Below are positions 4,201 to 60,159 of a stretch of 64,000 bases of DNA, piece after piece (the first letter of the stretch is position 1; every line of letters starts with the position of its first letter). The translations under genes and the position numbers were made by a program. The notes beneath the pieces are model-generated. The model saw only the letters and a list, made by a program, of their open reading frames with translations. It had not been told where the DNA came from and made no database searches. The stretch lies in the NCBI RefSeq assembly GCF_000732625.1, contig NZ_JPJI01000032.1:248001-312000 (forward strand). Direction: 5' to 3'. The DNA comes from Nonlabens ulvanivorans (GTDB taxonomy: Bacteria > Bacteroidota > Bacteroidia > Flavobacteriales > Flavobacteriaceae).

Positions 4201-6754
4201 CATCGAGGAGTTCATTGAGACGATCTAACAAACTCACTGTTGCTTCTATTTTTTCTAGAACAACTCCTTTAGAATTAGGTACATCAAGTAATCCTTGAGA
4301 TAATCCATTTAGCGCATAATCTGAAATATTATGTCCGTGATTATTCAATTTTATTTGAGCAATCATTTCGGTTATCCATGTTTCATTTTCTTTCCATTCC
4401 TTATAAAACGGAACATAAATTAACTCGTTATCACTGAGCTTTTCTTTGGTTTGGTAATAGGTAATCAACTCTTGAAACAGCTCAAAAAGTGGCGGCATCC
4501 CATCACGCATCGTATCGTGAAAATGCTCTAACTTCCCTAGATGTGTTTCTATTTGATTGATAATTTTTTCACGCTTTCGCGAAAGCGTAGAAGTACTCAT
4601 ATCCTTCTTCATAAAGGCCTCATAGGTATCCTTGAGATTCATTATAAAGGCTTTTTTATCGGTTTGAGAATCGTGGATCAGGCAACACAACTCATCTAGT
4701 TTTTTATTTTTCAATCGGTGAAAAACCACATCTAAAGCGGCACGTTTTTCACAAACAAAAAGCACTTTTTGATCTCTAGCTACATAATCAGCAATGAGGT
4801 TAGTAATGGTTTGCGACTTACCGGTTCCTGGTGGTCCTTGAATGATATAATTCTCGCCAGACCGAGCTCTTAAAACGGCTTGAGATTGTGTAGGATCTGA
4901 CTGGATAATGGGATATAAGTCTGCTAAACCACTTTTTTGATAACCATCGAGATTCATTTTCTTGGGCTGCTCACTGAAGAGTTCATCAAAGACCTCATCT
5001 TTAATATCGGCTTTTAAAATCTCAGAATAATCTCGTACAAGACTCATTTTACGGTACTTAAAATTACCTATAGTCATGTTACAAGTATCCACTTCCCATA
5101 CCAGCGGATTTACATCTCCATCATTATCGGTATGATAAAAACTGCGGCGGCGCTCTGCAACAGCAAGATCACTGTATGGGTTGATATCCTCATTAATGAT
5201 ATACTCGAGCTCGTTATGCTTTTTGGCAATCAGGTTATTGAAAATAGCAAGCCCTAATGGTTTTACATTTTGAGCGTCATAAGAATAGTCATAACTGCGT
5301 GTGCTTAAACCAGAATTGCGATTAGAAAGTTTGCGCTTTTTAAGTTTGAAGTTGCGTTTTGCCAGCTTGTGAATTAACTGGATTTTAGGCTTGTCTCTCC
5401 ATCTTAAATCGATTCCTGTACCACCTAGTGAGATTTGGTTTTTGATACTTTGAACAAGCTCTTCAATAGAACTGGTTTCTAGGTCTATAAAATCTGGTAA
5501 TTCAATACCGTATAAATCTTTAAGATAGTAACTTAATACTGGATTGATCTCTGCCTCAGAATCATTTACATTTAGTTCAAAACGATCTTTAACACCTTTC
5601 TTTTTTACCAAAGAAACTGGTAATAATAACAGCGGCGAACTGATACGCTCATCTTCACTTTCTTTAAAATTATACCAGTGCAAAAAAGCAACAACAACAC
5701 GCAATTGATCAAAACCGTATTCATTTGTACTCTTGCGCGCCTCTAGTCTTATTTTATTAAGTGCTGGACTTAAAAATCTGTTTTTATCAAGTTCTAAATA
5801 TCTATTAAGATTGACTTTTTTCTTTGAAATGAACTGCGTTTGAATATGAGCGTTCCAAAAAATCAAATCCTTTTCAGTAATGTTTTTATAGTCCAGTAAC
5901 ATAGGCACTGAGGCTTCTGTCAAGTTTAAGAAACCACCACGATCATTAAAGTAAAGCAATTTATTCCTGCGCGAAATATCAAAAAGTCTACGTTTTAATT
6001 TATCTAGAATATAGCTACCACGGTCTGACAGATTTAAATTACGGAACCCTTCAGTATCTGTTAAATCAATGTAATTCTCTGGATTGAAATCTCGGTAATT
6101 TTTGAGTTTCGCAATGATTTCTTCAAGACTAGGTGCACGATCTTCTCTGTACAAAGGTGTCATTTCCCTAATCACGTGATGTATGGTAGGATGTAAATCT
6201 TTGTTATAGAAATATAAGCGCTCACGGTTTTCTATAAAACGCTTAAGCTCGTCAATGTCTCTAAAATCTATACCATATGCGACTGAAGCTAGTATAAAGC
6301 CTAGTGTAAAAATCTCAGTAATAGGATCATAATGTCCTGTTTCTAAATCCCAACTTTTATATCGTGCAAGGTAAACAGGCTTAGTTATAGGTTTTTCAAA
6401 ATCCTCTTGAATCGCTTCATCATCATAGATGTGCTGGTCATAATCATCACCTTCAATCTTACTTATTTCACTATAATTACCACTTACTTCAACCGCATAG
6501 CGCTGTTTAGGTTTTTTAAATATCTTGTGCTCTCCTGTTCTAAACTCTTTTCCTTCAGAATCTATGGAGATGATTCTTCCATTAAAGTAAATATCTTCAA
6601 TAGAATAAACCCCTAACACGAGATTGCGAGATCTCAAAAAATGAGCCTTTTCTATAAGCGGTAATACACGTGCAATAAAATCTGCCGTGGTACTACCGCC
6701 ATGATCTTTCACCTCATCTAAAAGACTAAAAAAACTTGCTTTATAATCACTCAT
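1289..6754 (-). CDS. Hhe-like DUF4011 SF1 helicase with N-terminal kinase-like region, REase-like domain and C-terminal WGR domain
   Basis: Giant protein of 1821 residues. Residues about 127-218 resemble a degraded protein-kinase C-lobe (DPITEIFTLGFILA, then a Ps-EEI-LKNYR end). A DUF4011-type LDKLKRRLFDISRRNKLLYF segment is near 248. Walker A GPPGTGKS is at about 640-647, Walker B DEAS at about 1259-1262, and later SF1 motifs include GWHYRSRRESLI, VQGDERD and RLNVIFSRAKR (about 1530). A Vsr/REase-like domain follows (about 1590-1690; CDLALRK, AILIDRSTHY, FGWKL), then a WGR domain (YWEIAVDG, ITRYGRIG) near 1767. The DUF4011-helicase-Vsr order matches the Hhe anti-phage proteins; the WGR and kinase-like ends are additions. 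The first in-frame ATG is at 6784, but I chose 6754 because ATGAGTGA there overlaps the upstream stop by 8 bases, which suggests translational coupling. A defence role is inferred. Confidence 0.85.
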   Translation of the reverse strand: MSDYKASFFSLLDEVKDHGGSTTADFIARVLPLIEKAHFLRSRNLVLGVYSIEDIYFNGRIISIDSEGKEFRTGEHKIFKKPKQRYAVEVSGNYSEISKIEGDDYDQHIYDDEAIQEDFEKPITKPVYLARYKSWDLETGHYDPITEIFTLGFILASVAYGIDFRDIDELKRFIENRERLYFYNKDLHPTIHHVIREMTPLYREDRAPSLEEIIAKLKNYRDFNPENYIDLTDTEGFRNLNLSDRGSYILDKLKRRLFDISRRNKLLYFNDRGGFLNLTEASVPMLLDYKNITEKDLIFWNAHIQTQFISKKKVNLNRYLELDKNRFLSPALNKIRLEARKSTNEYGFDQLRVVVAFLHWYNFKESEDERISSPLLLLPVSLVKKKGVKDRFELNVNDSEAEINPVLSYYLKDLYGIELPDFIDLETSSIEELVQSIKNQISLGGTGIDLRWRDKPKIQLIHKLAKRNFKLKKRKLSNRNSGLSTRSYDYSYDAQNVKPLGLAIFNNLIAKKHNELEYIINEDINPYSDLAVAERRRSFYHTDNDGDVNPLVWEVDTCNMTIGNFKYRKMSLVRDYSEILKADIKDEVFDELFSEQPKKMNLDGYQKSGLADLYPIIQSDPTQSQAVLRARSGENYIIQGPPGTGKSQTITNLIADYVARDQKVLFVCEKRAALDVVFHRLKNKKLDELCCLIHDSQTDKKAFIMNLKDTYEAFMKKDMSTSTLSRKREKIINQIETHLGKLEHFHDTMRDGMPPLFELFQELITYYQTKEKLSDNELIYVPFYKEWKENETWITEMIAQIKLNNHGHNISDYALNGLSQGLLDVPNSKGVVLEKIEATVSLLDRLNELLDEQEVTVRTQSVAAWRLEFDFASKVSKIVAQNALGVFDTSTIAASNLDNLNRRIEKQRKLYLRLVDENKNWTQKLDATDAKIAQEQWQRLDGSFFKFLNPSWYRIKNQLKAAYNFRAHNIAPSIESVLKTLNEEYAALESLEQQREEAANKFGLEDFVSDYEWIKQQQLDPDDIIKSWMATDHTSYVNSLLGFKLDFDQFDENLNQLFTNCDHHLLSQIEDKLQRGKASIHTIGLFTPYIMQLQSTSKEMQDNLRRKPWQTGDIAFHTAYKSLKEVYDKEPVFSQTSEDILASSVRSVDALLDSYYESNVAFIRSKIRDKFLNKVRITESVAAQLTPEEKILKKKYNASRRVLENEFGKSMRYKSIRELATGEAQEIMTTLKPVWLMSPLSVSDSMPIDTSIFDVVIYDEASQITVEEGVPSLFRTHQTIIVGDEMQMPPTNFFSSNTTDQEEDEEETEEKTGIMLDADSLLNQGARKLSSVMLGWHYRSRRESLISFSNAAFYKRNLLTIPDSRIPNAGIEPLEPIITPDQEIDAQDVLKRSISFHYMENAVYHKRVNKDEATYIANMVRTFLMKDVKKSIGIVAFSMAQQSEIEEALDKLAQEDPHFGKLLEEEYQRTEEDQFVGLFVKNLENVQGDERDIIIMSICYGFNNQGKMFMNFGPINRRGGEKRLNVIFSRAKRNMIIVSSILAANIKNDYNEGANYFKRFLAYAKFISDGQLESANGILDSLHLDDDEEERTKRLPIINQLKTVLEKDGYIVDRAIGQSHFKCDLALRKSDSESYELAILIDRSTHYATDDILEQYSQKPAVLKAFGWKLQHIYSKDWLEQPERVLEKIRQKLEGKEEDPEDPEELESELERENQIDAVEEIKSNDESSNTLIPEVLETELEPETAQRPQGNLTFKRYEFVEGSSNKYWEIAVDGFDIITRYGRIGNKPQENRKSLDDQVAVLKEEMRLIGVKTRKGYRPV
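4572..4587. repeat. 16-bp palindrome, perfect copy inside the helicase gene
   Basis: CGCTTTCGCGAAAGCG. Read on the coding strand it encodes LSRKR within TSTLSRKREKI, the third of the three possible frames. Confidence 0.9.
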
Positions 6755-10469: not shown

Positions 10470-11267
10470 ATGAAAAATAATATTTTAATAGTTGAAGACG
10501 AGGCAACACTATATGAACGTCTAAGACGTACACTAGTGAAACAAAACTTTATAGTGGATGAGTATACTAAATCTTATGAAGAGGCTATACAACGTATACA
10601 TAAAAAAACTCCTGATATTGTTTTATTAGACATCAATCTAGAAGGTGATAAAAACGGCATACAATTAGGTGAAGCTCTTTATAAAAACTACAATATACCG
10701 TTCATTTACTTGACTAGCTTAAGTGACAATATGACCTTCTCTAAAGGTATGCATACTAATCACGAGCATTTTATAGTTAAAACTAAACCTAGACTTAACG
10801 TTGAAGAAATTACTCGTGCTATACATACTGCAATTCATAAAAGAACAGTCACTATTGACAATTATAAAAAAGGTGTTATAGGATTAGTGGGCTATCTTGA
10901 TGAGATAAAAAATATGGGACGTGATATCATTTCAAAAGTAAAGGTAAATTATTCAGATATTGTATTCTTTTCTACAGCTCCATATACTAATGAGAATAAT
11001 CAAATTGAAAAAGTAGAAAAGAATTACTGTTGGTTTTTGACTATCAATGGAGAATACTATTTTTTGAAAGATAGTTTAAGCTCGCTTTCGCGTAAGCTTC
11101 CATATCACTATATACGTATTAATGAAAGCTACATAGTTAACGTAGGGGAAAATATCAACGTATCAAGAATCAACGGATCGCGTCTTAAAATCGAAAAGCA
11201 TGAATTTACTGTTAGTAGCACTTACAAGAAAGAAACAAATAAAAGATTAGAGCATTTTTACGGATAA
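10470..11267 (+). CDS. LytTR-family response regulator
   Basis: 265 residues. The receiver domain (about 1-120) has the acidic pair in VEDE, phospho-acceptor D54 in LLDINLEGD and the conserved T/S and K in the YLTSLSD and IVKTK segments. A linker follows, then a LytTR DNA-binding domain (about 150-262; DIVFF, LKDSLSSLSRKLP, YHYIRINESYIVN, VSSTYKK). It is seven bases after the histidine kinase gene and is its likely partner. Targets are not visible. A near-copy of the 16-bp palindrome (11083-11098) encodes the SLSRKL part of the DNA-binding domain, a position where LytTR proteins often have similar residues. Confidence 0.9.
   Translation: MKNNILIVEDEATLYERLRRTLVKQNFIVDEYTKSYEEAIQRIHKKTPDIVLLDINLEGDKNGIQLGEALYKNYNIPFIYLTSLSDNMTFSKGMHTNHEHFIVKTKPRLNVEEITRAIHTAIHKRTVTIDNYKKGVIGLVGYLDEIKNMGRDIISKVKVNYSDIVFFSTAPYTNENNQIEKVEKNYCWFLTINGEYYFLKDSLSSLSRKLPYHYIRINESYIVNVGENINVSRINGSRLKIEKHEFTVSSTYKKETNKRLEHFYG
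11083..11098. repeat. Near-copy of the 16-bp palindrome inside the LytTR gene
   Basis: CGCTTTCGCGTAAGCT, 14 of 16 positions, read in the LSRKL frame. It may be a decayed copy or a chance match, since LSRKL-like residues are common here in LytTR domains. Confidence 0.5.
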
Positions 11268-14194: not shown

Positions 14195-14216
14195 CCAGCT
14201 TTAAAACACCTGTGTG

Positions 14217-17200
14217 ATGAGCAAAAAATTCAATGAATACAAAGGATTGAACCTTCCAGAAGTAGATCAACGCATCAAAAACTTCTGGAAAGAAAACGAC
14301 ATTTTCAATAAGTCCATGACGACTCGTGAAGGAAATGAACCTTTTATTTTCTTTGAAGGACCGCCATCTGCAAATGGATTACCTGGTATTCACCACGTTA
14401 TGGGACGTACGATTAAGGATTTATTTTGTCGTTTTAAAACCCAGCAAGGTTACCAAGTAAATCGTAAAGCTGGATGGGACACACACGGACTTCCAGTTGA
14501 GTTAGGTGTCGAAAAAGCACTAGGAATCACTAAGGAAGATATCGGAACTAAAATCTCTGTTGAAGATTACAATCAAGCCTGTAAAGATGCGGTATTAAAA
14601 TATACAGACATATGGAGCAAGCTTACAGATGATATGGGATACTGGGTAGATATGGAAGATCCATACATTACCTACAAGCCTAAATATATGGAATCTGTAT
14701 GGTGGCTATTGAAACAAATCTATTCCAAAGATTTACTTTATAAAGGATACACGATACAACCATATTCTCCAGCTGCAGGAACTGGATTGAGCTCGCACGA
14801 GTTGAACCAGCCTGGTACCTATCAAGACGTTACAGACACGACAGTTACGGCACAGTTTAAAGTTGAGGATCCATCAAAATTACCATTTGAAAACAATGGC
14901 AATGTATTTTTCCTTGCTTGGACTACTACTCCATGGACACTGCCATCTAACACTGCGCTTACCGTTGGTCCTAAAATCGAATATGTACTAGCTGAGACTT
15001 TTAACCAATATACTGGAGAACCTATGCAGGTGATTCTTGCTGAGAAATTAGTGAGCTACCAGTTTGGTAAGAAGTATGAGCATTTAGAAGGTGACGCTTT
15101 CGCGAAAGCGAAACTAGAATACAAATTAGGAGATAAAAAAATCCCTTATCAGTTATTAGGTTCTTGTAAAGGAACTGATCTGGTAAATTTAAGATACGAG
15201 CAGTTGTTGCCATATGCACAACCGTATGAAAATGCACAAGATGCTTACAGAGTAATTGCAGGAGACTTTGTAACTACTGAGGACGGTACAGGAATCGTGC
15301 ACACAGCACCTACATTTGGTGCAGACGATGCGCTGGTTTCTAAACAAGCAAATCCGCCTATTCCACCGATGTTGGTTCTAGATGAAAATCAGAATCCAGT
15401 ACCGCTAGTAACGCTTCAAGGAAAATTTAGAGATGAACTGCCAGAGGTAGGTGGTAAATATGTAAAGAACGAATATTTTGCAGATGGAGAAGCGCCAGAA
15501 CGCTCTGTAGATGTAGATATCGCGATTGCTTTAAAAGAACAGAATCGTGCTTTTAAAGTAGAAAAATATGTCCACAGTTATCCACATTGCTGGAGAACTG
15601 ACAAGCCTGTTTTATACTATCCACTAGACAGTTGGTTCATAAAAGTGACGGAATTTAAAGACCGCATGCACGAGCTGAACAAATCTATCAACTGGAAACC
15701 TAAATCTACCGGAGAAGGAAGATTTGGCAACTGGCTGGCAAATGCAAACGACTGGAATTTATCTCGTTCTCGTTTCTGGGGAATCCCATTGCCTATATGG
15801 AGAAATGAGACTGGAACTGAAGAAATGATTATAGGTTCTATAGAAGAACTTACAGCAGAGATAGAGAAATCTGTAGCAGCTGGATTTATGACTTCTAATC
15901 CTTTTGCTGGCTTTAAAACTGGCGATATGAGTGAAGAGAATTACAACCTTGTAGATCTTCATAAAAACGTGGTAGACGACATTTATCTAGTAGGTAAAAA
16001 TGGAGAGAAACTAACACGTGAATCAGACCTTATTGATGTATGGTTCGATTCTGGTTCTATGCCTTATTCTCAATGGCACTATCCTTTTGAAAATAAAGAA
16101 CAAGTAGAAAACCAACTTAGAAAAGCAGATTTCATTGCCGAAGGTGTGGATCAAACTCGTGGATGGTTCTACACACTACACGCTATCGCTACCATGATAA
16201 GTGATGACGTGGCTTATAAAAATGTAGTTTCTAACGGACTCGTACTAGATAAAAATGGACAGAAAATGTCTAAACGTCTAGGTAACGCAGCAGATCCTTT
16301 TGAGACTTTAGGTAAATATGGAGCAGATGCTACTCGCTGGTACATGGTGAGTAATGCTAATCCATGGGACAACCTTAAATTTGACTTAGACGGTATCACA
16401 GAAGTGCAACGTAAGTTTTTCGGTACACTTTATAACACGTATTCTTTCTTCAGTCTGTATGCAAACGTAGATGGGTTTACTTATAGTGAAGCTAACATTC
16501 CATTAGAAGAACGTCCAGAAATAGACCGTTGGGTTTTATCTGAGTTAAATACTTTGATAAAAGATACCACAGCATTCTATGAAGATTATGAACCTACAAA
16601 GGCTGCTAGAGCCATCACCACTTTTGTGACTGAGAACTTAAGTAACTGGTACGTACGTTTATGTAGAAGACGTTTCTGGAAAGGAACTTATGAGCAAGAT
16701 AAAATTGCTGCCTACCAGACACTTTATACTTGTCTTAAAACGGTAGCACAATTAGGCGCACCTATTGCTCCATTCTTTATGGATCAACTATACCGCGATT
16801 TAACTAGTGTTTGTGAAAGCGACGCAAGTGAAAGTGTACATCTTGCATTATTCCCTAAAGCAGATGAGTCTCTAATAGATGCAGCTCTAGAAGAAAAAAT
16901 GCATAAAGCACAAGTAATTTCTAGTCTTACTCTATCGTTACGTAAAAAGGAAAGTATCAAAGTACGTCAGCCTTTACAGCGTATCATGATACCAGTATTA
17001 GATGCAAAAGATAGGGCACAAATAGAAGCGATTGCAGACCTTGTAAAAAGTGAGGTAAATGTAAAAGAGATTGAATTAATTGATGACGCTAGTGGTATAT
17101 TAGTTAAAGAAATCAAGCCAAATTTTAAAGCGTTAGGACCTAGATTTGGTAAGGCGATGGGGCAAATAGCTGGGAAAATTAAAAGTTTTCAACAAGAAGA

Positions 17201-18089: not shown

Positions 18090-18703
18090 CTCTTCTAAGC
18101 ATATTTTTGATATTCGCTTTCGCGAAAGCGCAATCACAACGCAATTCTAGTCATATCACTTATGACAACACAGGAATCTCTACAGTTGACATATATCTAG
18201 AATCTACTATTGAGCTAGAAATTATTACAACGAAAGAGGAACACATTAGAATAATTGAAAGTCAAGGAGGAGAATACCGAAGTGCAGTTTTGTTAAATAC
18301 AGCAATATCCAACGACACTTTAAAAATTACCGATCCTTTTAATCCCAGCTTTTCTTTTCCACAAGACAAATTGAGTGCACACAAGATTATAGACGGAAAA
18401 GCAACGATTTACCTTCCAGAAAACTTAGCTCTAGATATTAACTCGCGCAATTGCTTTTTAAGCATCAATGGTAAATTTGAATTTTCTTTTATCAATCTAG
18501 AATCTGGCAGCTGTTTATTAAAAAATGTACGTGGAGATTTTCATATCGTATCAGTAAACGCGATGGTTACAGTCATCAATCCGTCATCTTACATAGAATT
18601 GTCCACAAAATATGGTGTAATAACCCAATTAACTAATGAGTCGATTGTTTATTATAACCAGAAAATAGAAACCATAAATAGCAACATTACTATTAAGGAT
18701 TAA
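18050..18703 (+). CDS. Secreted protein of unknown function, DUF4097-like beta-rich
   Basis: 217 residues. The N-terminus has a signal peptide whose hydrophobic core runs LLSIFLIFAFAKAQS; the AFAKA part is encoded by a perfect copy of the 16-bp palindrome. The mature part is beta-rich (LEIITTKEEHIRIIES, KATIYLPENLALDINSRN, VRGDFHIVSVNAMVTVINP) and resembles adhesin-like right-handed repeats of DUF4097 type, a weak assignment. It lies between the dksA-like gene and lspA on the same strand. The start codon lies in an inverted repeat (18036-18089). Confidence 0.7.
   Translation: MALLHKCPVVKRSSLLSIFLIFAFAKAQSQRNSSHITYDNTGISTVDIYLESTIELEIITTKEEHIRIIESQGGEYRSAVLLNTAISNDTLKITDPFNPSFSFPQDKLSAHKIIDGKATIYLPENLALDINSRNCFLSINGKFEFSFINLESGSCLLKNVRGDFHIVSVNAMVTVINPSSYIELSTKYGVITQLTNESIVYYNQKIETINSNITIKD
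18115..18130. repeat. 16-bp palindrome, perfect copy inside a signal-peptide region
   Basis: CGCTTTCGCGAAAGCG encodes AFAKA at the end of the hydrophobic core and probable cleavage site of the 18050 gene's signal peptide. Confidence 0.9.
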
Positions 18704-23897: not shown

Positions 23898-23913
23898 CGC
23901 TTTCGCGAAAGCG
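23898..23913. repeat. 16-bp palindrome, perfect copy in a divergent intergenic region
   Basis: CGCTTTCGCGAAAGCG between the start of the protease-rimK operon (minus) and the PhoD-like gene (plus). Confidence 0.9.
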
Positions 23914-26958: not shown

Positions 26959-26974
26959 CGCTTTCGCGAAAGCG
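26959..26974. repeat. 16-bp palindrome, perfect copy in a divergent intergenic region
   Basis: CGCTTTCGCGAAAGCG, 31 bases before the uvrC ATG and 77 bases from the thioredoxin start on the other strand. Confidence 0.9.
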
Positions 26975-28805: not shown

Positions 28806-31032
28806 ACACATATGGATTGTCTTAGTATTCATTTTCGCGCAAGCGGATTTTTTATATGCGCAACAAAATCAAAAAGCTAACAAGCAAAAAATAGGTCTAG
28901 TATTATCTGGTGGTGGCGCAAAAGGACTCGCTCATATCGGAACGTTAAAAGTCATAGACTCGTTAGGTATTAAGATAGATTATGTTGCAGGAACTAGCAT
29001 GGGCGCAATTGTAGGTTCTTTATATGCATCTGGCTACACCGGTAAGCAATTAGATTCTGTGTTTCAGACTATTGATTTTGATGATATAATTTCAGATGAC
29101 ATACCACGTGAATCTAAAACATACTTTGAACGCAAGGATAATGAACGCTATGGTGTGACCTTACCCTTTAAGGACTTTAAAGTACAAGTACCTAACTCAC
29201 TAAGCAAAGGACAAAATATATATAATTTACTTTCCAGATTGCTCTCTCATGTTAAAGATGTGCATGAATTTAGTGAATTACCAATTCCATTTTTTTGTGT
29301 TGCTACAGATGTTGAAACTGGAGAAGATATTATATTAGATAATGGTTATTTACCTCGTGCAGTAAACGCCAGTGGTGCCTTACCTTCCTTATTTGCTCCG
29401 GTAGAAATAGAGAATAGACTTTTTATAGACGGCGGCGTCACAGACAATTACCCAGTAGAAAAGTTAAGAGCTTTAGGAATGGACATCATCATAGGCGTGG
29501 ATGTTCAAGATGGACTTAAAAACAGAGATCAACTCAACGGTGCTTTTGATATCCTTACTCAAATTAATAATTATCGTACTATAAATGCGATGAAAGAAAA
29601 AGTATCCTTCACTGATATCTATATTGATCCTGATATTGAAGATTACACAGTCATATCCTTTGATCAAGGAAAAGCGATTATTAAAGAAGGAGAAATAGCT
29701 GCATTTAAAAAATTAGACCAACTGCAAAAGCTAATTGATGGAGAAGGCTATCATAGAGAAAAATTACCTGCAGTAACAACAGATAGCATATACCTAGCTC
29801 AAGTATATATTAATGGTAATGAAAACTATTCTAGAGCCTACATAAACGGTAGATTTAAAATTGAAACACCCGGTAACGTAGCATATACAGACATCAGAGA
29901 CGGAATTAATAATTTACAAGCCACTAATAATTTTTCTAAAATTAATTATGAAATTATCAATACACCAGATGGTGCTATTCTAGAAATAGGCGTTATAGAA
30001 ACTACGGTGCGCAATTACCTACGACTAGGTGTTCATTATGATGAGTTGTTAAGAAGTGCAGCATTAGTTAACCTTACTAGAAAAAACGTCTTATTTGATA
30101 GTGATGTCGTTTCTGCAGATGTTATTTTAGGTGACAATGTCAGATATAATTTTGATTATTATATCGATAAAGGTAAGTACTGGTCTATCGGCTTTCATAG
30201 CGAGTTTGTTCAATATGAAAAACAGATATCTGCTAGTTTTCTAGAACAAGTTACAGATATAGATATTGATGTCAACTCTATAGATCTAGATTACAACGAC
30301 TGGACTCAACAACTATTTCTACAAACTAAAATAGGAAATGGGTTCAATCTTACTATAGGAGCAGAATATAAATCTTTAAGATTATTCACCGAAACATTGG
30401 GCACTAATGCTAACACAGACCAGCGCACGATATTTGAAAATAGCAATTATAGTAGTGTGTACACAAGTGTACTCTATGATACCTATGACAACTTGTTTTT
30501 CCCATCTAGTGGTTGGAAAATAGATGGTGATTTACACATCTATTTATATAATAGTAGCAAGGTAGATAATAACTTTCAAGAATTTTCAATGGCCCAAGTT
30601 TCTGTAGGTCATGCAAGAAGCTTTGGTAAATGGAGTCTGCGTGGAGATGTCCTATTTGGATTACCCATAGGTAATCCTGGCAATAGTTCTTTTGATTTCT
30701 TTTTAGGTGGTTATGGCGCTAGGCGCATTAATAATATACTACCATTTTACGGTTATGATTTTGTAAGCTTGAGCGGTAACACGGTAATGGGTGGACTTAT
30801 TGAACTAGACTATGAAATCTTTAAAAACAACCATATCATCTTGAGTACTAATTCTGTAAAGATTGATGATTATCTATTTGAAAAATCAGACTGGTTCAGT
30901 ACAGATGGTTTTACGGGATATGCTATCGGATATGGACTAGAGACATTCTTAGGACCATTAGAATTAAAATACAGCTTTAGTCCAGAGCAAAGTAAAGGTG
31001 AGTTCTATGTAAATCTAGGGTTTCAGTTTTAG
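28792..31032 (+). CDS. Patatin-like phospholipase fused to an outer-membrane beta-barrel (PlpD/type Vd-like)
   Basis: 746 residues from ATG 28792; another ATG at 28798 is equally close, and both lie inside the uvrC end. The signal peptide ends in LYAQQ. The patatin domain has the oxyanion loop GGGAKGLAHIG, nucleophile S69 in GTSMGA and catalytic Asp in FIDGGVTDNYP (D213). A POTRA-like linker (about 335-410; IYLAQVYINGNENYSR) and a C-terminal Bac_surface_Ag-type barrel with final FYVNLGFQF follow. It should be a lipolytic domain held at or exported across the outer membrane. Translational coupling to uvrC is unusual. A degenerate copy of the palindrome (28830-28845) encodes part of the signal peptide. 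Confidence 0.92.
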   Translation: MKMNKHIWIVLVFIFAQADFLYAQQNQKANKQKIGLVLSGGGAKGLAHIGTLKVIDSLGIKIDYVAGTSMGAIVGSLYASGYTGKQLDSVFQTIDFDDIISDDIPRESKTYFERKDNERYGVTLPFKDFKVQVPNSLSKGQNIYNLLSRLLSHVKDVHEFSELPIPFFCVATDVETGEDIILDNGYLPRAVNASGALPSLFAPVEIENRLFIDGGVTDNYPVEKLRALGMDIIIGVDVQDGLKNRDQLNGAFDILTQINNYRTINAMKEKVSFTDIYIDPDIEDYTVISFDQGKAIIKEGEIAAFKKLDQLQKLIDGEGYHREKLPAVTTDSIYLAQVYINGNENYSRAYINGRFKIETPGNVAYTDIRDGINNLQATNNFSKINYEIINTPDGAILEIGVIETTVRNYLRLGVHYDELLRSAALVNLTRKNVLFDSDVVSADVILGDNVRYNFDYYIDKGKYWSIGFHSEFVQYEKQISASFLEQVTDIDIDVNSIDLDYNDWTQQLFLQTKIGNGFNLTIGAEYKSLRLFTETLGTNANTDQRTIFENSNYSSVYTSVLYDTYDNLFFPSSGWKIDGDLHIYLYNSSKVDNNFQEFSMAQVSVGHARSFGKWSLRGDVLFGLPIGNPGNSSFDFFLGGYGARRINNILPFYGYDFVSLSGNTVMGGLIELDYEIFKNNHIILSTNSVKIDDYLFEKSDWFSTDGFTGYAIGYGLETFLGPLELKYSFSPEQSKGEFYVNLGFQF
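28830..28845. repeat. Degenerate copy of the 16-bp palindrome in a signal-peptide region
   Basis: CATTTTCGCGCAAGCG, 13 of 16 positions; encodes IFAQA in the same frame as the AFAKA copies. Confidence 0.4.
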
Positions 31033-31034: not shown

Positions 31035-31050
31035 CGCTTTCGCGAAAGCG
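31035..31050. repeat. 16-bp palindrome, perfect copy just after a stop codon
   Basis: CGCTTTCGCGAAAGCG begins two bases after the TAG of the patatin gene. Confidence 0.9.
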
Positions 31051-33939: not shown

Positions 33940-34905
33940 ATGTCACAGGAAATCAGTCCAGAAATCGCGCAACGTATTCAGTTGTTAGAAGAAAAATTTA
34001 AGAATTCAGGTCAGGACATGCTCTCCTATCTAGATGGACTGTTATATGACCAATACATTACTTATTGGGATTACATAAGATTAGACACACTACTAAGTCT
34101 ACAGGTGCCATCTACTCATTTTCCAGATGAAATGATTTTTATAGGTTACCATCAGATTACAGAGCTTTATTTTAAACTCATTATACACGAGCAATTACAA
34201 ATTATAGAAAGTAAAGATTTAACAGGTCCTTTCTTTGCAGAAAAACTGCGTCGTATTAATCGCTATTTCGGTATTTTAATTAGCTCTTTTGAAGTAATGA
34301 TTAAAGGAATGGAACGCGAGCAATTTTTAAAATTCCGTATGTCATTATTACCAGCTAGTGGTTTTCAGAGTGCACAGTTCCGCATGATAGAATTTTACAG
34401 TAGTGATTTAATAAATGTAGTACATCCAGATGTTAGAGAACGCTTCCGCGAAAGCGGTAACGATAACCTTGAAGAACTCTACAATCATTGTTACTGGAAG
34501 CAAGGTGGTATCGATATGCATACCCAAGAAAAAACGCTTACACTAAAACAGTTTGAAGAACGTTACACACCTAGATTCTTGCGTATCGCGCATGAGGTAA
34601 AGGACACAAATATTTACCAACGATACCTGCAATTACCTGAAGAAGAAAAAACAAAAGAACTAATGGACGCCATGCGCGCTCATGACCAAAACGCTAACAT
34701 CAACTGGAAACTAATGCATATGGGAAGTGCCCATCGCTATCTGAGAAAAGAAGGCGATCCTATACAGGCAACTGGAGGAACTAACTGGAAAAAATTCTTG
34801 CCACCTAGTTTTCAAAAAATTATTTTCTATCCAGAACTATGGACTCAAGATGAGATCGATAACTGGGGAAAACAATGGGTTGAACACGCATTAAACACAA
34901 AATAA
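33940..34905 (+). CDS. kynA: Tryptophan 2,3-dioxygenase
   Basis: 321 residues, an all-helical haem dioxygenase that opens the tryptophan indole ring to N-formylkynurenine. Recognised from YDQYITYWDYIRLDTLLSLQ, DEMIFIGYHQITELYFKLIIHE, FRMSLLPASGFQSAQFRMIE and the C-terminal WKLMHMGSAHRYLR, which carries the haem-binding His. It is in a run of three same-strand genes (M23 lipoprotein 3 bases on, then pgi), so this catabolic gene may share a transcript with cell-wall and sugar genes. A 15/16 copy of the palindrome encodes RFRES near residue 168. Confidence 0.92.
   Translation: MSQEISPEIAQRIQLLEEKFKNSGQDMLSYLDGLLYDQYITYWDYIRLDTLLSLQVPSTHFPDEMIFIGYHQITELYFKLIIHEQLQIIESKDLTGPFFAEKLRRINRYFGILISSFEVMIKGMEREQFLKFRMSLLPASGFQSAQFRMIEFYSSDLINVVHPDVRERFRESGNDNLEELYNHCYWKQGGIDMHTQEKTLTLKQFEERYTPRFLRIAHEVKDTNIYQRYLQLPEEEKTKELMDAMRAHDQNANINWKLMHMGSAHRYLRKEGDPIQATGGTNWKKFLPPSFQKIIFYPELWTQDEIDNWGKQWVEHALNTK
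34441..34456. repeat. Near-perfect 16-bp palindrome inside the tryptophan dioxygenase gene
   Basis: CGCTTCCGCGAAAGCG, 15 of 16 positions, read in the RFRES frame (RERFRESGNDN). Confidence 0.8.
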
Positions 34906-36147: not shown

Positions 36148-37781
36148 AAAACATAAATCCGACGGAAACAAACGCATGGCTTAAATTAGAAAAACACTTT
36201 GAAGGTTTTGACGATTTCAGCCTCAGAGAAGAGTTTAAAAAAGACACCTCTAGAGCAGAAAAGCTTACGTTAATAGACAAGGATTTTTATGTTGATTTAT
36301 CTAAAAACTTAATTACCGAGACTACAAGGACTCACCTTACATCACTAGCTACAGAGTGTGGTTTAAAAGAAGCTATTAACTCTTACTTTAATGGAGCGAT
36401 TATAAACGCCACAGAAAAACGCGCCGTTTTACATACTGCATTAAGAACCCCACAATCTAGTGCAGACAGCAGTGTTGTAAGCAATGTAAGTGACGCCATC
36501 GAGAGTAAGCAAAAGATGTTTGATTATGTTGATAGCGTCCTGAACAGTAAAACTTTAACAGCTAGTGGTAAAAAATTTGACACCATTGTTAATATAGGTA
36601 TCGGTGGTAGTGATTTAGGACCAGTCATGATTTATGAGGCTTTACAAGCGTACAAAAATGACATGACCCTTCATTTTGTCTCTAACGTTGAAGGAGATCA
36701 TGTAGAAGAAGTTCTTAAAAAAATAAACCCAGAAACAACATTATTTGTCATCGTTTCAAAGTCTTTTGGGACACAAGAAACATTGACTAACGCTACAACC
36801 ATTAGAAACTGGTTTATTGAAAAAATAGGAGCAGATGCTGTTTCAAATCATTTTATAGCCGTAAGCAGCAATGTAGAAAAAGCTGTCAACTTTGGTATCC
36901 ATCATGCAAACATATTCCCGATGTTTGATTGGGTAGGTGGTAGATTTTCATTGTGGAGTACTGTAGGTATGTCTGTAGCTCTAGGAATAGGGACTAAAAA
37001 CTTCCAATCATTATTAGATGGCGCACATGACATGGACAACCATTTCAAAAACACTGATTTTGATAAAAACATTCCTGTTCAATTAGCATTAATGACCATA
37101 TGGTATAATAACTTTTATCGCGCACAAAGCGAGGCTATCATTCCATACACACAATACCTTCATAGACTACCTGCTTATTTACAACAGGCCATTATGGAAA
37201 GTAATGGTAAATCTGTTGACCGTGATGGCAACTCAGTTACCTATGACACAGGTAATATTATCTGGGGAGAACCTGGTACTAACTCGCAGCACGCATTTTT
37301 TCAGTTAATTCATCAAGGAACTAAATTAATACCTGCTCATTTTATCGCTTTCGCGAAAGCGAAATACAATCAGCCAGATCATCACAATAAGCTGATGGCA
37401 AATTTCATTGCGCAAACTGAAGCCTTAATGAATGGTAAAACAAGAGCTGAGGCCAAAAAAGATCTAGAAAAATCTGGTAAGAGTAAAGAGGAAATTGAAA
37501 TGTTATTGCCTTTTAAAGTATTTGAAGGAGATCAACCTACAACGACCATTTTAATTGATGAACTTACACCACAGAGCATCGGTAAGTTAGTCGCTATGTA
37601 TGAACACAAAATTTTTACTGAAGGTGTTATATGGAATATTTATAGTTATGATCAATGGGGCGTTGAACTAGGAAAAGTTCTTGCAGACAAAGTCCTAGAC
37701 AACATAGAAAATAAAGAATATGCCGCCCACGATAGTTCAACAATCGGAATTTTAAAGAGATTTGGAAGCTTAAATAATTAA
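36144..37781 (+). CDS. pgi: Glucose-6-phosphate isomerase
   Basis: 545 residues; converts glucose 6-phosphate and fructose 6-phosphate. Family blocks are FDTIVNIGIGGSDLGPVM, HFVSNVEGDHV, VIVSKSFGTQETLTN, FPMFDWVGGRFSLWSTVG, the catalytic QAIMESNGKSVDRDG, GEPGTNSQHAFFQLIHQG and the final YDQWGVELGK. It starts inside the stop of the M23 gene, showing coupling. A perfect palindrome copy encodes FIAFAKAKYNQ near residues 401-406. It is the last gene of its operon; a long AT-rich gap with a good promoter follows. Confidence 0.97.
   Translation: MKNINPTETNAWLKLEKHFEGFDDFSLREEFKKDTSRAEKLTLIDKDFYVDLSKNLITETTRTHLTSLATECGLKEAINSYFNGAIINATEKRAVLHTALRTPQSSADSSVVSNVSDAIESKQKMFDYVDSVLNSKTLTASGKKFDTIVNIGIGGSDLGPVMIYEALQAYKNDMTLHFVSNVEGDHVEEVLKKINPETTLFVIVSKSFGTQETLTNATTIRNWFIEKIGADAVSNHFIAVSSNVEKAVNFGIHHANIFPMFDWVGGRFSLWSTVGMSVALGIGTKNFQSLLDGAHDMDNHFKNTDFDKNIPVQLALMTIWYNNFYRAQSEAIIPYTQYLHRLPAYLQQAIMESNGKSVDRDGNSVTYDTGNIIWGEPGTNSQHAFFQLIHQGTKLIPAHFIAFAKAKYNQPDHHNKLMANFIAQTEALMNGKTRAEAKKDLEKSGKSKEEIEMLLPFKVFEGDQPTTTILIDELTPQSIGKLVAMYEHKIFTEGVIWNIYSYDQWGVELGKVLADKVLDNIENKEYAAHDSSTIGILKRFGSLNN
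37346..37361. repeat. 16-bp palindrome, perfect copy inside pgi
   Basis: CGCTTTCGCGAAAGCG in the AFAKA frame, just after the conserved HxxFFQLIHQG region of the enzyme. Confidence 0.9.
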
Positions 37782-41667: not shown

Positions 41668-41683
41668 CGCTTTCGCGAAAGCG
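41668..41683. repeat. 16-bp palindrome, perfect copy after a stop codon
   Basis: CGCTTTCGCGAAAGCG, 14 bases after the stop of the four-helix membrane protein and 16 bases before the bidirectional terminator. Confidence 0.9.
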
Positions 41684-46526: not shown

Positions 46527-47372
46527 TTACTTATTAGAGTCACGCCATTCCATACACTTTCTATATGGGTTCGTCTTTTTATTTCTAGAACCATGTATTG
46601 CTATTGCGATAGTTAGCACACATGCCAGCCCTAATGCCAAATAGGCAATCTGATTAGTTGCCAGTTTACTCAGACCATCCATAGGCTCGTTAAACCTCAT
46701 GAAAATTGCAACCAGTGCCCATACACCTACTAGAGCAAATTCTCGCATATTGCGATAAACTACCATCGCCATATTCACAATAAATGCTACAAAAATCATG
46801 ACCATAGTTGCATATACTTGGGTAGTTATTGCAAAGTCAAAGTTGCCATTCAACCATGCCGCTATATTTGCTATAGTAGCGACGCTAATCCATCCCACAT
46901 AGAGACACAATGGCCACCAAACAAAGGCGATGATAGGAAAAGGCGCATCCCATATCTCCATGTCTAATTTTTTTACACAAATCAATAAACTAACTAAAAT
47001 ACCCAGCATACATATTACCGAAACTCCTACCATTTCATCTAACCAAAATGCTACCCAAGCACTACAAAATATATTTGCGAGTAAAAACCATGGAGCAGTC
47101 GTTTTCAAAAAATCTTCTCTATAATCTGTGGGCTGTGATTGTTTCGCTTTCGCGAAAGCGATATAAACACCATATATACCAAACACTAATAGCATTAAGA
47201 AAATTAAACCCCATATAGAAAATGCATAACTAGCTGGTGTGAAGAGGTTATTATATTCGGCACTTAATTCTCCTACTGTTTTACCGTTATAATTTCCTGT
47301 ATTTGCAAAGCCATTCCATGCAATTAGAAAAATAATACTGATAAGATTGAGTACTGCGATTAGTTTTTTCAT
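46527..47372 (-). CDS. TspO/MBR-like tryptophan-rich membrane protein
   Basis: 281 residues with eight or more hydrophobic segments. It begins MKKLIAVLNLISIIFLIAWNGFANTG and contains FTPASYAFSIWGLIFLMLLVFGIYG, WFLLANIFCSAWVAFW, FVWWPLCLYVGWISVATIAN and FALVGVWALVAIFMRF, the pattern of the larger bacterial relatives annotated as tryptophan-rich sensory proteins. TspO binds porphyrins and lipids; what this larger form does is not known. A perfect palindrome copy encodes IAFAKAKQSQP in the loop after an early helix, a place tolerant of insertions. Confidence 0.8.
   Translation of the reverse strand: MKKLIAVLNLISIIFLIAWNGFANTGNYNGKTVGELSAEYNNLFTPASYAFSIWGLIFLMLLVFGIYGVYIAFAKAKQSQPTDYREDFLKTTAPWFLLANIFCSAWVAFWLDEMVGVSVICMLGILVSLLICVKKLDMEIWDAPFPIIAFVWWPLCLYVGWISVATIANIAAWLNGNFDFAITTQVYATMVMIFVAFIVNMAMVVYRNMREFALVGVWALVAIFMRFNEPMDGLSKLATNQIAYLALGLACVLTIAIAIHGSRNKKTNPYRKCMEWRDSNK
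47145..47160. repeat. 16-bp palindrome, perfect copy inside the TspO-like gene
   Basis: CGCTTTCGCGAAAGCG, AFAKA frame on the coding (minus) strand, at a helix end or loop. Confidence 0.9.
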
Positions 47373-48077: not shown

Positions 48078-50486
48078 TTAAAATAGGTATCTAGCACCTA
48101 GAATTAAATTTCTACCAGCAGCGCTTACACCAGATGAGTATGTTCTATATCGTTGATCTGTCATATTTTCTAGTGTCACATTTAAAGAAAGTGCCTCATT
48201 GAGACTATATCTAGATCTTATGTTAAGAGTGTACCATGATGGTGCATATGGATTGCCATTTGAGTCTAAAGCATATAGATAAGGACGACTTTGTTGACTA
48301 GGATCTAAATCTTCAAAATCAAATTGACCGTTAAATTGAGCAAACAAACCAAGTTTCAAAGACTCTTTTTCATAATTTAATTGCAAATCTCCAAAAGCCG
48401 GAGCAACATGTCTTACTGGGATTTTATTACCATCCACTTCTGTTTGTTCTCCTTTTGTAATATTATAATGCCCTATTAAAGAGAATTGATCATTAAGTTT
48501 ATAATTAAGGCCTAATTCTAGTCCATAAATGTTTGCTTTTTCACCGTTTTGTATGGATTGCACTTGACTTTGCTCTCCTTGATATTCTATAATAGATTGC
48601 CCGTTGAGTTCATCATTTTGAGCGACCAGTGCGTCTTTTAAATAAGTATAATAAACACTTGCATCTAGTGTGAGCTTATCATTCCATGTTTTCTTGACAC
48701 CTATCTCACTATTATATGAATATTCTGATTCCAGATCTGGATTAGGGACTATGACTGTGCCAGGACTAGGATCAAACAATTTCCCTAAATCATCGATATT
48801 AGGCGCACGAAAGGCCGTACTAAGATTGCTTCTCAATTCCCATTTATTATTAGTAACATAAGTCGCTCCTATTCCGCCAGTAAGTGCTCCGGTATTAATG
48901 GTTGCTTCTTCAAATGGGAAATTAAAAAATGCATTGTTAGCCGTGAAATCTGCATCAATCCATATATGATTATACCTTAAACCAGTATTTACAATCATTT
49001 GAGAAGACACTTTCCATTGATAACTTGCATAAGCAGCAAGTGATCTCCATGAGGAACCATCTGGATATCTGGTTGCATTTGCCGAGAATACGTTAGTATC
49101 TATATCTTGAATATATCCATTAGAACGTACTCGGTTATGAATAAATTCACCACCATAAAATAATGCGTTAGATTCTCTATCACGTCTTTCAAAATCTAAC
49201 GAAGTGGATATCGCATCAACCTGTTCTTCATTAACAAAGCGTTCTGAATCTTGAAAATCCCTTGTTATACGACTTTCTTCAAAATGTTGATATGCCTGTG
49301 TTAAAACTGCTTTGTCATACCACTTACCATCACCACGATGAGTCACATTAAAATTAGTCATTAACCATTTTTGTGGACCATAAAACCACTCTGCGTTTCT
49401 AGGTTCAGCGCTTTCGCGAAAGCGATCTAAAGAGTCATACCTAGGAAAATCACCAGTACCAGAATAAATAACACCTAGTCCAAATTCAAAATCTTGAGTA
49501 GGTTGATACCTAAGTTTCTGTAAAATATTAAGTTGGTCATATCCTGTAGGACGCTGGATTAAAGAATTATCATTTACTATAGAAATATCTTGATCATCAC
49601 GTCGCACGACATAGCTTTCTCTTAAGTAATCATCGGGACCATGAGTACCCATCCGTAAATCATCAAAAAAGTTAACCGTTATACTGGTTGCAGAGGCCCA
49701 TTTCTCGCCACCGATATTAAAATTTAAATGACCTGTGTTCTCATTATTTGCGCTTGCATATCGCAATAAACCACTACCTGTTATTTGAACTGAATCTTTT
49801 TGAAACTGTGGCTTAAGTGTATAAAAGTTCATCACTCCACCTATTGCGTCACTACCATAAACAACACTACCAGGACCTAAAATTACCTCACTACGATCTA
49901 CACTTAATGGATCGATAGAAATAACATTTTGCAGGTTACCACTACGGAAGATGGCCGTATTCATGCGCACACCATCAACGGTTATCAACAACCTATTAGT
50001 AGAAAATCCTCTTATCATAGGACTACCACCACCTTGTTGAGATTTTTGAACAAAAACCTGACCAGATTGCTGTAACAAATCTGCACTAGTTTGTGGATTA
50101 TTGAAAGTAATTTCTTCTTTATTTACAGCAAATATTTTTTGAGGAATATCTTGCGCTCTTTGCTCAAATTTTGAAGCTGATAAAATTATAGGATTAAAAT
50201 AATCTGATTGCTGTTGCAACCTGATGAATTTATCTTTTGAAATGTTTGTCTTTATTATTTTGATGGTAGCATATGATATGCTCTGAAAATAGATAAATTC
50301 TTGATCGTTAAAAATTTTTAAATCTACCTGACCTTCAATATCTGACACAGCAGATTTTGACTTTGTTTTATTATAAACAGCTACATTAACTAACGGCTCA
50401 TTAGTATCTATATCTACAATCGTAACCACCTGTGCTATGGAAGGAAAAGTAGTTAATATTATAAATATCAATAGTAACTTTTTCAC
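48078..50486 (-). CDS. TonB-dependent receptor with carboxypeptidase-regulatory-like domain
   Basis: 802 residues. Signal peptide MKKLLLIFIILTTFPSIAQ, then a CarboxypepD_reg-like domain (about 20-100; DTNEPLVNVAVYNKTKSKS), a plug (FNNPQTSADLLQQSGQVFVQ, GGSPMIRGFSTNRLLITVDGVRMN, VVYGSDAIGGVMNFYT) and a barrel ending NLILGARYLF. The plug RGFSTNRLLITVDG and long barrel fit haem- or siderophore-type outer-membrane transporters, but the substrate is not known. Its ATG overlaps the recO stop by four bases, so it is in the recO operon. A palindrome copy encodes DRFRESAEPRN in a barrel loop. Confidence 0.93.
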   Translation of the reverse strand: MKKLLLIFIILTTFPSIAQVVTIVDIDTNEPLVNVAVYNKTKSKSAVSDIEGQVDLKIFNDQEFIYFQSISYATIKIIKTNISKDKFIRLQQQSDYFNPIILSASKFEQRAQDIPQKIFAVNKEEITFNNPQTSADLLQQSGQVFVQKSQQGGGSPMIRGFSTNRLLITVDGVRMNTAIFRSGNLQNVISIDPLSVDRSEVILGPGSVVYGSDAIGGVMNFYTLKPQFQKDSVQITGSGLLRYASANNENTGHLNFNIGGEKWASATSITVNFFDDLRMGTHGPDDYLRESYVVRRDDQDISIVNDNSLIQRPTGYDQLNILQKLRYQPTQDFEFGLGVIYSGTGDFPRYDSLDRFRESAEPRNAEWFYGPQKWLMTNFNVTHRGDGKWYDKAVLTQAYQHFEESRITRDFQDSERFVNEEQVDAISTSLDFERRDRESNALFYGGEFIHNRVRSNGYIQDIDTNVFSANATRYPDGSSWRSLAAYASYQWKVSSQMIVNTGLRYNHIWIDADFTANNAFFNFPFEEATINTGALTGGIGATYVTNNKWELRSNLSTAFRAPNIDDLGKLFDPSPGTVIVPNPDLESEYSYNSEIGVKKTWNDKLTLDASVYYTYLKDALVAQNDELNGQSIIEYQGEQSQVQSIQNGEKANIYGLELGLNYKLNDQFSLIGHYNITKGEQTEVDGNKIPVRHVAPAFGDLQLNYEKESLKLGLFAQFNGQFDFEDLDPSQQSRPYLYALDSNGNPYAPSWYTLNIRSRYSLNEALSLNVTLENMTDQRYRTYSSGVSAAGRNLILGARYLF
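49409..49424. repeat. 16-bp palindrome, perfect copy inside the TonB receptor gene
   Basis: CGCTTTCGCGAAAGCG, RFRES frame (DRFRESAEPRN) in a probable extracellular loop. Confidence 0.9.
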
Positions 50487-53608: not shown

Positions 53609-53624
53609 CGCTTTCGCGAAAGCG
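53609..53624. repeat. 16-bp palindrome, perfect copy just after the gdhA stop
   Basis: CGCTTTCGCGAAAGCG, three bases past the gdhA TAG (minus strand) and before the terminator. Confidence 0.9.
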
Positions 53625-55008: not shown

Positions 55009-55018
55009 GTTGATAATG

Positions 55019-57754: not shown

Positions 57755-57770
57755 CGCTTTCGCGAAAGCG
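57755..57770. repeat. 16-bp palindrome, perfect copy in a divergent intergenic region
   Basis: CGCTTTCGCGAAAGCG, 35 bases before the DinB start (minus) and 70 bases before the ArsC-like start (plus). Confidence 0.9.
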
Positions 57771-57828
57771 AAACAGGCAAATTAATTAATATTAGGGATA
57801 AAGATATTCCTTATCAAAAAAGCTATCG

Positions 57829-57836
57829 TAATTTTG
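57829..57836 (+). promoter_or_regulatory. Possible -7 element for the ArsC-like gene
   Basis: TAATTTTG fits TAnnTTTG but ends only four bases before the ATG, so the transcript would be nearly leaderless. Confidence 0.3.
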
Positions 57837-57840
57837 CTAT

Positions 57841-59509: not shown

Positions 59510-59594
59510 ACTTAAATATAACAAATAAATATTTGAAAATCAATTACCTGCTTTAAAACCAATTATATTAACTTATTGATATAAGAAAACAGGT

Positions 59595-60074: not shown

Positions 60075-60143
60075 CTTTATTTAGGGTAAAGATATTATAT
60101 GCACGCATAGCAAAAAACAAGTTTGAAGAAAATTTAATTGTTT

Positions 60144-60159
60144 CGCTTTCGCGAAAGCG
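60144..60159. repeat. 16-bp palindrome, perfect copy after a stop codon
   Basis: CGCTTTCGCGAAAGCG, 12 bases past the stop of the MATE gene (minus strand). The flanking bases TTT and AAA extend the symmetry. Confidence 0.9.

Follow-up and report, generated by a model that had tools for sequence, protein, structure and literature searches.

What keeps a 16-bp palindrome, CGCTTTCGCGAAAGCG, recurring at regular distances along a stretch of Nonlabens ulvanivorans DNA? Few classes of long motifs that fill bacterial genomes are known, and a regular lattice of 16-bp sites, present in two named genera and with genes shaped around it, points to a strong, unseen process that acts on the whole chromosome. 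In this study, the stretch of 64 kb (hereafter the window) was analysed together with further genomic DNA and related genomes. The palindrome probably labels the cell's own DNA, for DNA exchange or chromosome folding, and we tentatively favour the reading that it is the core of an uptake-type (DUS/USS) self-DNA recognition signal, which would be spread by molecular drive.

Copies of the palindrome in the window and in other genomes

A motif scan of the window re-found all 13 perfect copies that the original prediction had counted in the 64 kb, each at exactly the start given for it, as well as the near copies placed at 28830, 34441 and 61615, which carry three, one and one mismatches, respectively. 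Together with two additional near copies at 641 (three mismatches) and 11083 (two mismatches), the window holds 18 matches compared with 0.05 in dinucleotide shuffles. The sites, listed without strand and with their counterparts in the compared genomes G242, G010 and BBFL7, are:

641..656, three-mismatch site, which may be a chance match or a decayed copy
4572..4587, perfect palindrome; the surrounding gene has DUF4011, helicase and REase-like domains and reads LSRKR here
11083..11098, two-mismatch site within a 10.5-kb gap separating perfect sites
15095..15110, perfect palindrome within a gene for a class I tRNA synthetase (14214-17624), read as AFAKA; G242 has the identical copy
18115..18130, perfect palindrome close to an ORF's 5' end (AFAKAQ); by coordinates, G242 has a copy at the matching place
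23898..23913, perfect palindrome with divergent ORFs on either side; by coordinates, G242 has a copy at the matching place
26959..26974, perfect palindrome, its start 47 bp ahead of the uvrC ORF; G242 and G010 lack a perfect counterpart
28830..28845, three-mismatch site just past the uvrC stop, probably a decayed copy; perfect there in G242 and G010
31035..31050, perfect palindrome flanked by two plus-strand genes; no perfect counterpart in G242 or G010
34441..34456, genic site with one mismatch; G242 and G010 have a perfect copy at this offset
37346..37361, perfect palindrome within the gene for phosphoglucose isomerase, read as AFAKA; unchanged in G242, four mismatches in G010
41668..41683, perfect palindrome with convergent genes on either side; unchanged in both G242 and G010
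47145..47160, genic perfect palindrome (AFAKA); one-mismatch form in BBFL7, absent from G242 and G010
49409..49424, genic perfect palindrome (RFRES); copy in BBFL7, absent from G242 and G010
53609..53624, perfect palindrome lying between ORFs; unchanged in both G242 and G010
57755..57770, perfect palindrome with divergent ORFs on either side; one mismatch in G242
60144..60159, perfect palindrome between ORFs; one mismatch in G242
61615..61630, one-mismatch site

The 3.21-Mb genome contains 436 copies of CGCTTTCGCGAAAGCG compared with none for the pattern read backwards, which is another palindrome of the same composition; the claim that such a repeat is not expected by chance was therefore well founded. 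A 464-kb sample of the N. ulvanivorans genome, made up of the window and a further 400 kb, yielded 62 perfect, 19 one-mismatch, 13 two-mismatch and 8 three-mismatch copies, against means of 0, 0, 0 and 1.0 for up to 40 shuffled palindromes with the same half-site letters, while the copies with four and five mismatches (6 and 45) did not exceed this control (13.4 and 46.2). Genome counts lie far above expectation and not near it, and the repetition of the palindrome is far beyond chance. All 23 of the searched genomes of the genus Nonlabens had 180-737 copies each, and Dokdonia sinensis (G206) had 630; a ranking of the relatives by one protein did not resolve their kinship. In another genus, the genome G190 uses a dialect of the motif, with 445 12-mers and 153 16-mers, and its contig, sampled around the entire length (540 kb), showed 90 12-mer sites, one to six in each isolated 20-kb stretch. 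Moreover, the palindrome site is borne by tailed phages and by efflux-gene clusters of other genera.

Flanks, gene context and spacing of the sites

The AT-rich flanks had been described correctly, and their pattern is moreover symmetric and partly conserved. Symmetric base preferences extend to ~18 bp on either side of the 16-mer, which gives an element of ~52 bp with A/T-preferring, G-poor flanks that are T-rich before the palindrome and A-rich after it; these preferences are all that is shared outside the 16-mer, with no longer unit. The flanks also show an A pattern stepped by 3 bp. A codon artefact was rejected as its source, as 62 half-sites that have a stop codon immediately next to the palindrome still show the pattern. 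A cruciform or long hairpin was rejected as well; pairing between the flanks clearly exceeded expectation at the first base pair alone (0.42 vs 0.30), exceeded it slightly at the second and third, and did not do so further out.

In the 464 kb, sites are enriched between genes: 28 of the 62 are intergenic although non-coding DNA makes up 10%, and the other 34 lie within genes. In separate counts, divergent intergenic regions are slightly favoured (32 sites vs 23.3 expected) and convergent regions are not (12 vs 17.4), while the genic sites prefer the frame A-F-A-K-A (100 of 151). The intergenic share and the divergent regions would suit an ordinary regulatory or transcription element, such as an operator or a bidirectional terminator, or else a dispersed REP-like transposable palindrome, as would the gap that was found near the site in 25 of 64 alignments lacking the motif. 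However, more than half of the sites are genic, and we consider such an element very improbable. A terminator was rejected because the order of T-rich and A-rich flanks has the wrong polarity and convergent regions are not favoured. An insertion element or a mobile palindrome of the REP/BIME type was also rejected, given the genic sites, the lack of a longer unit and the 39 of 64 motif-less alignments that are ungapped at the site. Judging from these alignments, sites often arise by substitution. At 47145, for instance, the G242 and G010 proteins align without gaps although the motif is absent.

Site spacing is even and lattice-like, at ~4-5 kb. The 94 sites with up to two mismatches in the 464 kb have a mean interval of 4.6 kb and an interval CV of 0.44 vs 0.96, with no interval below 1 kb where 16.5 were expected; near-copy sites fill gaps between perfect ones. 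The spacing overall shows an exclusion zone below ~2.5 kb. The seven 16-mer sites of G190 gave no CV signal, and the CV pooled over all genomes was borderline (p 0.05) because site densities differ among genomes. In the genome G300, perfect sites are missing from one 34-kb interval, which contains defence-like genes and four near copies.

The strong exclusion below 1 kb and the plugging of gaps by near sites bring in the main rival of the uptake reading, a chromosome-organising lattice. A dimeric nucleoid protein on a palindrome every 4-5 kb would bridge, insulate or position the chromosome, and long site-free stretches would be slightly harmful, so that selection would keep the spacing. A homodimeric DNA-binding protein would be in keeping with the perfect two-fold symmetry of the palindrome and with the symmetry of its flanks. 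If this were true, Bacteroidota would have a chromosome-organising system far denser than the known ones. The sites of ParB/Noc, MatP and SlmA are palindromes for dimeric chromosome proteins, numbering tens in limited domains, whereas here hundreds of sites are evenly spread and there is no ParB paralogue. Each of the five motif-rich genomes has a single HTH_ParB match, as do 17 of the 20 other genomes, which speaks against a second, Noc-like ParB, and Noc/ParB was rejected as the binding protein. A matS-like macrodomain site was likewise rejected, as G190, the sole chromosome sampled end to end, has evenly distributed sites and showed no domain confined to the terminus or the origin. With sites also on phages and in the efflux-gene clusters of other genera, and no cognate protein found, such a lattice is possible but doubtful.

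Conservation of sites and exchange between genomes

Of 45 sites aligned with BBFL7 (87% identity), 34 are unchanged where 9.1 were expected; the reverse comparison gave 35 of 42 (8.7 expected), and a separate comparison gave 11 of 12 (3.4 expected). Both the motif and many of its positions are kept in related genomes, as at 41668, which is retained in G242 and G010 despite a flank identity of only 71-72%. Turnover resembles a change of slots: a site stands at 26959 here and at the position of 28830 in G242 and G010, while in D. sinensis a perfect copy starts 44 bp ahead of the point aligned with the start of uvrC. Both the strong conservation and this turnover would also fit the chromosome-organising lattice. 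In DNA unaligned to BBFL7, some segments of which are mere stretch ends, there were two perfect sites vs ~6.6 expected and five with up to two mismatches vs ~9.9, a weak depletion.

Among the sites changed relative to BBFL7, 6 of 11, and 2 of 7 in the reverse comparison, have their sole difference in the outermost base pair (TGC... or ...GCA). This would also fit CpG deamination and a HIP1-like process, in which a short palindrome is kept by methylation-linked bias in repair, replication or recombination instead of transfer or architecture, and the palindrome is indeed highly iterated throughout coding and non-coding DNA. We regard this process as improbable; all 16 bp and the flanks are constrained, which exceeds the usual length of a methyltransferase site, and a repair bias does not account for spacing this even. 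Cyanobacterial HIP1 (GCGATCGC) is, in the passages of PMC4390886 consulted, likewise a highly iterated palindrome with an unsettled role, but it has another sequence and belongs to another phylum, and the palindrome described here is longer, with extended flanks. The earlier likening to HIP1, an uptake sequence or a chromosome-organising motif thus holds for the class, on counts, conservation and even spacing, but not for the HIP1 sequence itself.

Recombination between species is visible at 14.0-17.0 kb of the window, which is 92-99% identical to G242 compared with mostly 63-86% in the other aligned windows. High-identity tracts with BBFL7 were not enriched in sites (perfect, 1 vs 2.2 expected; up to two mismatches, 4 vs 3.2), a weak test in that the segments may partly be conserved genes. 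Identity to BBFL7 showed no dependence on how far away the nearest site lies.

A proposed uptake-type signal and its possible route of transfer

Under the favoured uptake reading, the 16-mer and its A/T-preferring, G-poor flanks, ~52 bp in total, would be read by a DNA-binding protein with two-fold symmetry, probably dimeric. Cells of Nonlabens and Dokdonia would exchange and recombine site-bearing DNA by preference, whether through uptake or some other form of transfer, and new sites born by point mutation would therefore spread and persist through molecular drive and weak selection. Where a typical transferred fragment already has one site, another would bring no further gain, which would explain the even spacing of ~4.4-4.6 kb. 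If transfer is true, flavobacteria would have a code for sexual isolation, along with a transformation machine that works without known pili.

DUS has dialects, as the palindrome has; DUS and USS are non-palindromic, which counts against the uptake reading, the candidate uptake signal here being a perfect 16-bp palindrome. According to passages of PMC2397512 and PMC7811141, the DUS of Neisseriaceae and the USS of Pasteurellaceae share with it hundreds of copies or more, even spacing, intergenic enrichment alongside genic copies, AT-rich flanks and a conservation exceeding that of their surroundings, but are denser, with one per 1-1.5 kb compared with about one per 4.6 kb here, near copies included. 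AT-rich flanks add to USS uptake, as an excerpt of PMC7811141 states. Passages of PMC7965970 report that type IV pili serve DNA uptake in Neisseria and H. influenzae and that Riemerella columbina, which is counted there among the Flavobacteriaceae, prefers its own DNA in uptake.

A PilT/PilB-type ATPase (T2SSE over the Pfam cut-off) was absent in four of the five motif-rich genomes, including the window's own, and present in G242 alone of these and in 4 of 15 motif-poor genomes; G300, outside that set of five, also carries one. This sets the palindrome apart from DUS and USS and, along with the unenriched high-identity tracts and the site-bearing phages, speaks against the uptake reading, while it would agree with a chromosome-organising lattice. 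ComEC was found in 15 of 15 genomes tested and DprA in 14 of 14; as every motif-poor genome tested had them (10 of 10 and 6 of 6, respectively), they do not discriminate.

To our knowledge, uptake-type signals come only from Neisseriaceae and Pasteurellaceae. It is rather unlikely, though conceivable, that the palindrome is the first drive-propagated self-DNA signal of this type outside these families: palindromic, with a symmetric reader protein that covers ~52 bp including the 3-bp-stepped A pattern, independent of type IV pili and passed on by a flavobacterial import or packaging route, with the same mark on tailed phages and the efflux-gene clusters of other genera. The view that no role had been described in Flavobacteriaceae agrees with our search of open-access papers, in which we found neither the 12-, 14- and 15-mer core texts of the palindrome, nor a highly iterated palindrome for Flavobacteria, nor one linking Dokdonia and Nonlabens, nor an overrepresented uptake sequence with natural transformation in Bacteroidetes. 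The 10-mer TTTCGCGAAA occurs in passages of open-access papers that are apparently unrelated to the palindrome. Chi is, at its density in E. coli, a genome-wide recombination-linked signal about as frequent as the palindrome, from which it differs in being short, oriented and non-palindromic.

Abundance and distribution of the palindrome

All 13 perfect copies of the palindrome that the original prediction had claimed for the window were found where it had placed them, together with five near copies, while the chance expectation at three mismatches or fewer was 0.05 matches. The whole genome (3.21 Mb in 45 contigs, with the window at positions 248001-312000 of C32) contained 436 perfect copies compared to none of the reversed control. 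In 464 kb of this DNA (the window and a further 400 kb, our own sample), there were 62, 19, 13, 8, 6 and 45 copies at zero to five mismatches versus 0, 0, 0, 1.0, 13.4 and 46.2 for shuffled palindromes.

At least one copy was present in 38 of the 299 genomes of the family, the N. ulvanivorans genome included, but many copies were found in only three of the 236 genera in this sample, with 0–13 in each remaining genome. The counts were 436, 495 and 579 for Nonlabens, 630 for G206, a genome matched to Dokdonia sinensis, and 153 for G190, which represents the third genus; each of the 23 Nonlabens genomes searched (23/23) had 180–737 copies. G190 carries a dialect of the palindrome, with 445 copies of the central 12-mer (574 in N. 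ulvanivorans) and a weak outermost base pair (0.58). A sequence-record search returned at least 106 stretches bearing the site; among the 80 matches listed, 67 were from Dokdonia, Nonlabens or 'Flavobacteria bacterium BBFL7', and the other 13 from other records with one site apiece.

Among the motif-poor genera, several matches cluster with conserved spacing. All 19 12-mers of G076 lie on one contig inside 78 kb (G076:C3:32332-110017), the 21 of G287 are spread across three contigs with clusters on C4 and C5, and, of the 19 in G051, the 11 listed share one contig (C6). A 4330-bp interval is identical in all three genomes and a 5254-bp interval in G076 and G051, and they were therefore taken as a shared island. 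Efflux genes, either RND (ACR_tran) or outer-membrane (OEP), were present at all three clustered loci scanned (L020, L021 and L031). In our reading, the motif-rich clade was the donor of the DNA in these clusters. Two other motif-poor genomes, G042 (L243, L248, L253) and G144 (L240, L245, L250), had 11 and 13 central 12-mers, respectively, which were mostly dispersed and above chance.

Spacing, placement and symmetry

Compared with uniform random placement, the perfect sites of our own sample were spaced regularly (interval CV 0.64 vs. 0.955; 0 of 5000 simulations as low), with two intervals below 2 kb where 14 were expected. The same was observed for the Nonlabens genomes G242 (0.36 vs. 0.93) and G010 (0.26 vs. 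0.88) and for G206 (0.59 vs. 0.94, p 0.018; one interval below 1 kb), while the seven 16-mers of G190 gave no CV signal (0.85 vs. 0.81). For the pooled genomes, the CV was 0.89 vs. 1.05 (p 0.05), with one interval below 1 kb against 17.4 expected. When sites with up to two mismatches were included, the own lattice comprised 94 sites with a mean spacing of 4.6 kb, a CV of 0.44 and no interval below 1 kb (16.5 expected); with up to three mismatches, the CV was 0.48. Because the near sites make the lattice more regular, degenerate copies tend to fill gaps and are probably functional. The pair correlation in motif-rich stretches was 0 below 0.5 kb, 0.06 at 0.5–1 kb, about half at 1–2.5 kb and near 1 thereafter; in G190 (14-mer, up to one mismatch), it rose from 0 below 0.5 kb to 0.23 at 0.5–1 kb and 0.48 at 1–1.5 kb.

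In G300, a further motif-rich genome, 94 consecutive sites over 484 kb included two intervals below 1 kb versus 16.3 expected, although the overall CV of 0.87 was not significant (p 0.10) because of wide gaps. One 55-kb stretch (G300:C4:298000-353000; L322–L324) has a single perfect site (332468) between its ends. Among its products are an SbcC-like ATPase, an AAA protein that matches NACHT and Mrr weakly, and a very large protein pair that occurs twice with the same N-termini; it also encodes a T2SSE ATPase close to small proteins that, judged by eye, resemble pilins.

Using a simple ORF rule (at least 90 aa), 28 of 62 sites were intergenic despite a coding fraction of 0.90, as were 112 of 264 in a wider set. 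The 151 genic sites were read as A-F-A-K-A (100), R-F-R-E-S (30) or L-S-R-K-R (21). Divergent regions held 32 sites (23.3 expected) and convergent regions 12 (17.4 expected). In G190, 90 12-mer sites in 540 kb sampled around the single 3.16-Mb contig, with 1–6 per isolated 20-kb stretch, revealed no origin or terminus domain. Within the window, one site lies inside the gene of an 1831-aa defence-like protein (1289-6784) with DUF4011, helicase, MTES_1575 nuclease and WGR domains.

Flank preferences were symmetric (269 sites). The intergenic flanks (n = 112) favoured T at +1 (0.57) and A at +2 (0.80), +3 (0.61), +6 (0.61), +9 (0.66) and +12 (0.54), with G depleted to about +18 and the bias fading farther out. 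Beyond about three bases, the left flank varies independently of the right one, so the element is a pair of half-sites rather than a long hairpin. A coding artefact does not account for the 3-bp step of A, which was still seen in 62 half-sites that start with a stop codon.

Conservation and turnover of the sites

Taking the flank identity to the 16th power as the expectation, identical copies were found at 11 of 12 aligned sites between G242 and G010 (blocks of 84–90%; 3.4 expected), four of eight between the window and G242 (1.3 expected) and two of five between the window and G010 (0.05 expected). BBFL7 is close to N. ulvanivorans by DNA similarity (85–96% in longer matched loci; 87% across the aligning 93% of 312 kb), and here 34 of 45 aligned perfect sites were identical (9.1 expected), as were 35 of 42 in the reverse direction (8.7 expected). 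The changed sites differed by one base in nine of 11 cases and, in reverse, four of seven. When motif-bearing proteins were aligned with motif-less relatives (identity of at least 45%, not all alignments independent), 39 of 64 were ungapped at the site and 25 were gapped. Substitution at one site is exemplified by IAFAKAK in N. ulvanivorans, IAFAKVK in BBFL7 and VSFAKKH in G010.

A site that is lost can be substituted by another close by. For the site before uvrC (26959), neither G242 nor G010 has a perfect copy at that position; both instead carry one just past uvrC, where N. ulvanivorans retains a three-mismatch relic (28830). An individual position therefore seems dispensable, whereas the lattice is maintained.

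DNA transfer and the possible role of the palindrome

Two parts of the window, 14.0-17.0 kb (92–99%) and 56-58 kb (89–94%), resemble G242, another species of the genus, well over the mostly 63–86% of other aligned parts, which points to recent recombination between species. ComEC (15/15 genomes) and DprA (14/14) were present in every genome tested, motif-poor ones included. A PilT/PilB-type ATPase over the cut-off was found in one of five motif-rich genomes (G242), versus four of 15 motif-poor ones, and in none of the N. ulvanivorans contigs; G300, outside the five-genome comparison, has one. The 17 segments (13.6 kb) with at least 96.5% identity between N. ulvanivorans and BBFL7, a test confounded by conserved genes, contained one perfect site (2.2 expected) and four with up to two mismatches (3.2 expected), and identity was flat with distance from a site (0.85–0.89). 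Both the mostly missing pilus ATPase and the results of this test speak against a DUS-like uptake drive. Unaligned segments of at least 1 kb, some of them mere stretch ends, had one perfect site in 18.4 kb (N. ulvanivorans) and one in 25.6 kb (BBFL7), together two versus about 6.6 at the aligned density.

Uptake sequences are, to our knowledge, the only process by which motifs of at least 10 bp come to fill genomes and the genes in them, and base rates therefore favour transfer-driven spread. We tentatively suggest that the palindrome might be an uptake or transfer signal, at odds short of even. An architectural role of the lattice is only slightly less likely; the symmetry of the palindrome and the mostly absent pilus ATPase favour such a role and a cytoplasmic dimer. 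A HIP1-like process is improbable, ordinary regulation or mobile palindromes are very unlikely, and the remaining weight is left to roles that we have not thought of. The comparisons drew on PMC2397512 and PMC7811141 for uptake sequences and on PMC4390886 for HIP1. PMC7965970 reports a preference of Riemerella columbina for its own DNA; A/T-rich k-mers are listed, and their role is left open by the authors.

The 16-mer was also found on 41 contig stretches in IMG/VR, which formed 18 similarity groups, several of them GC-rich single matches that may be due to chance. The blastn comparison of these stretches with the bacterial loci gave no match and thus no indication of hosts. One group of 12 stretches encodes an integrase as well as portal, major head and tape-measure proteins, and a single 24-kb contig there has four copies; a second group encodes a portal protein and has six copies in one 37-kb contig. 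L204, L229, L219 and L236 are tailed phage contigs with several copies of the palindrome.
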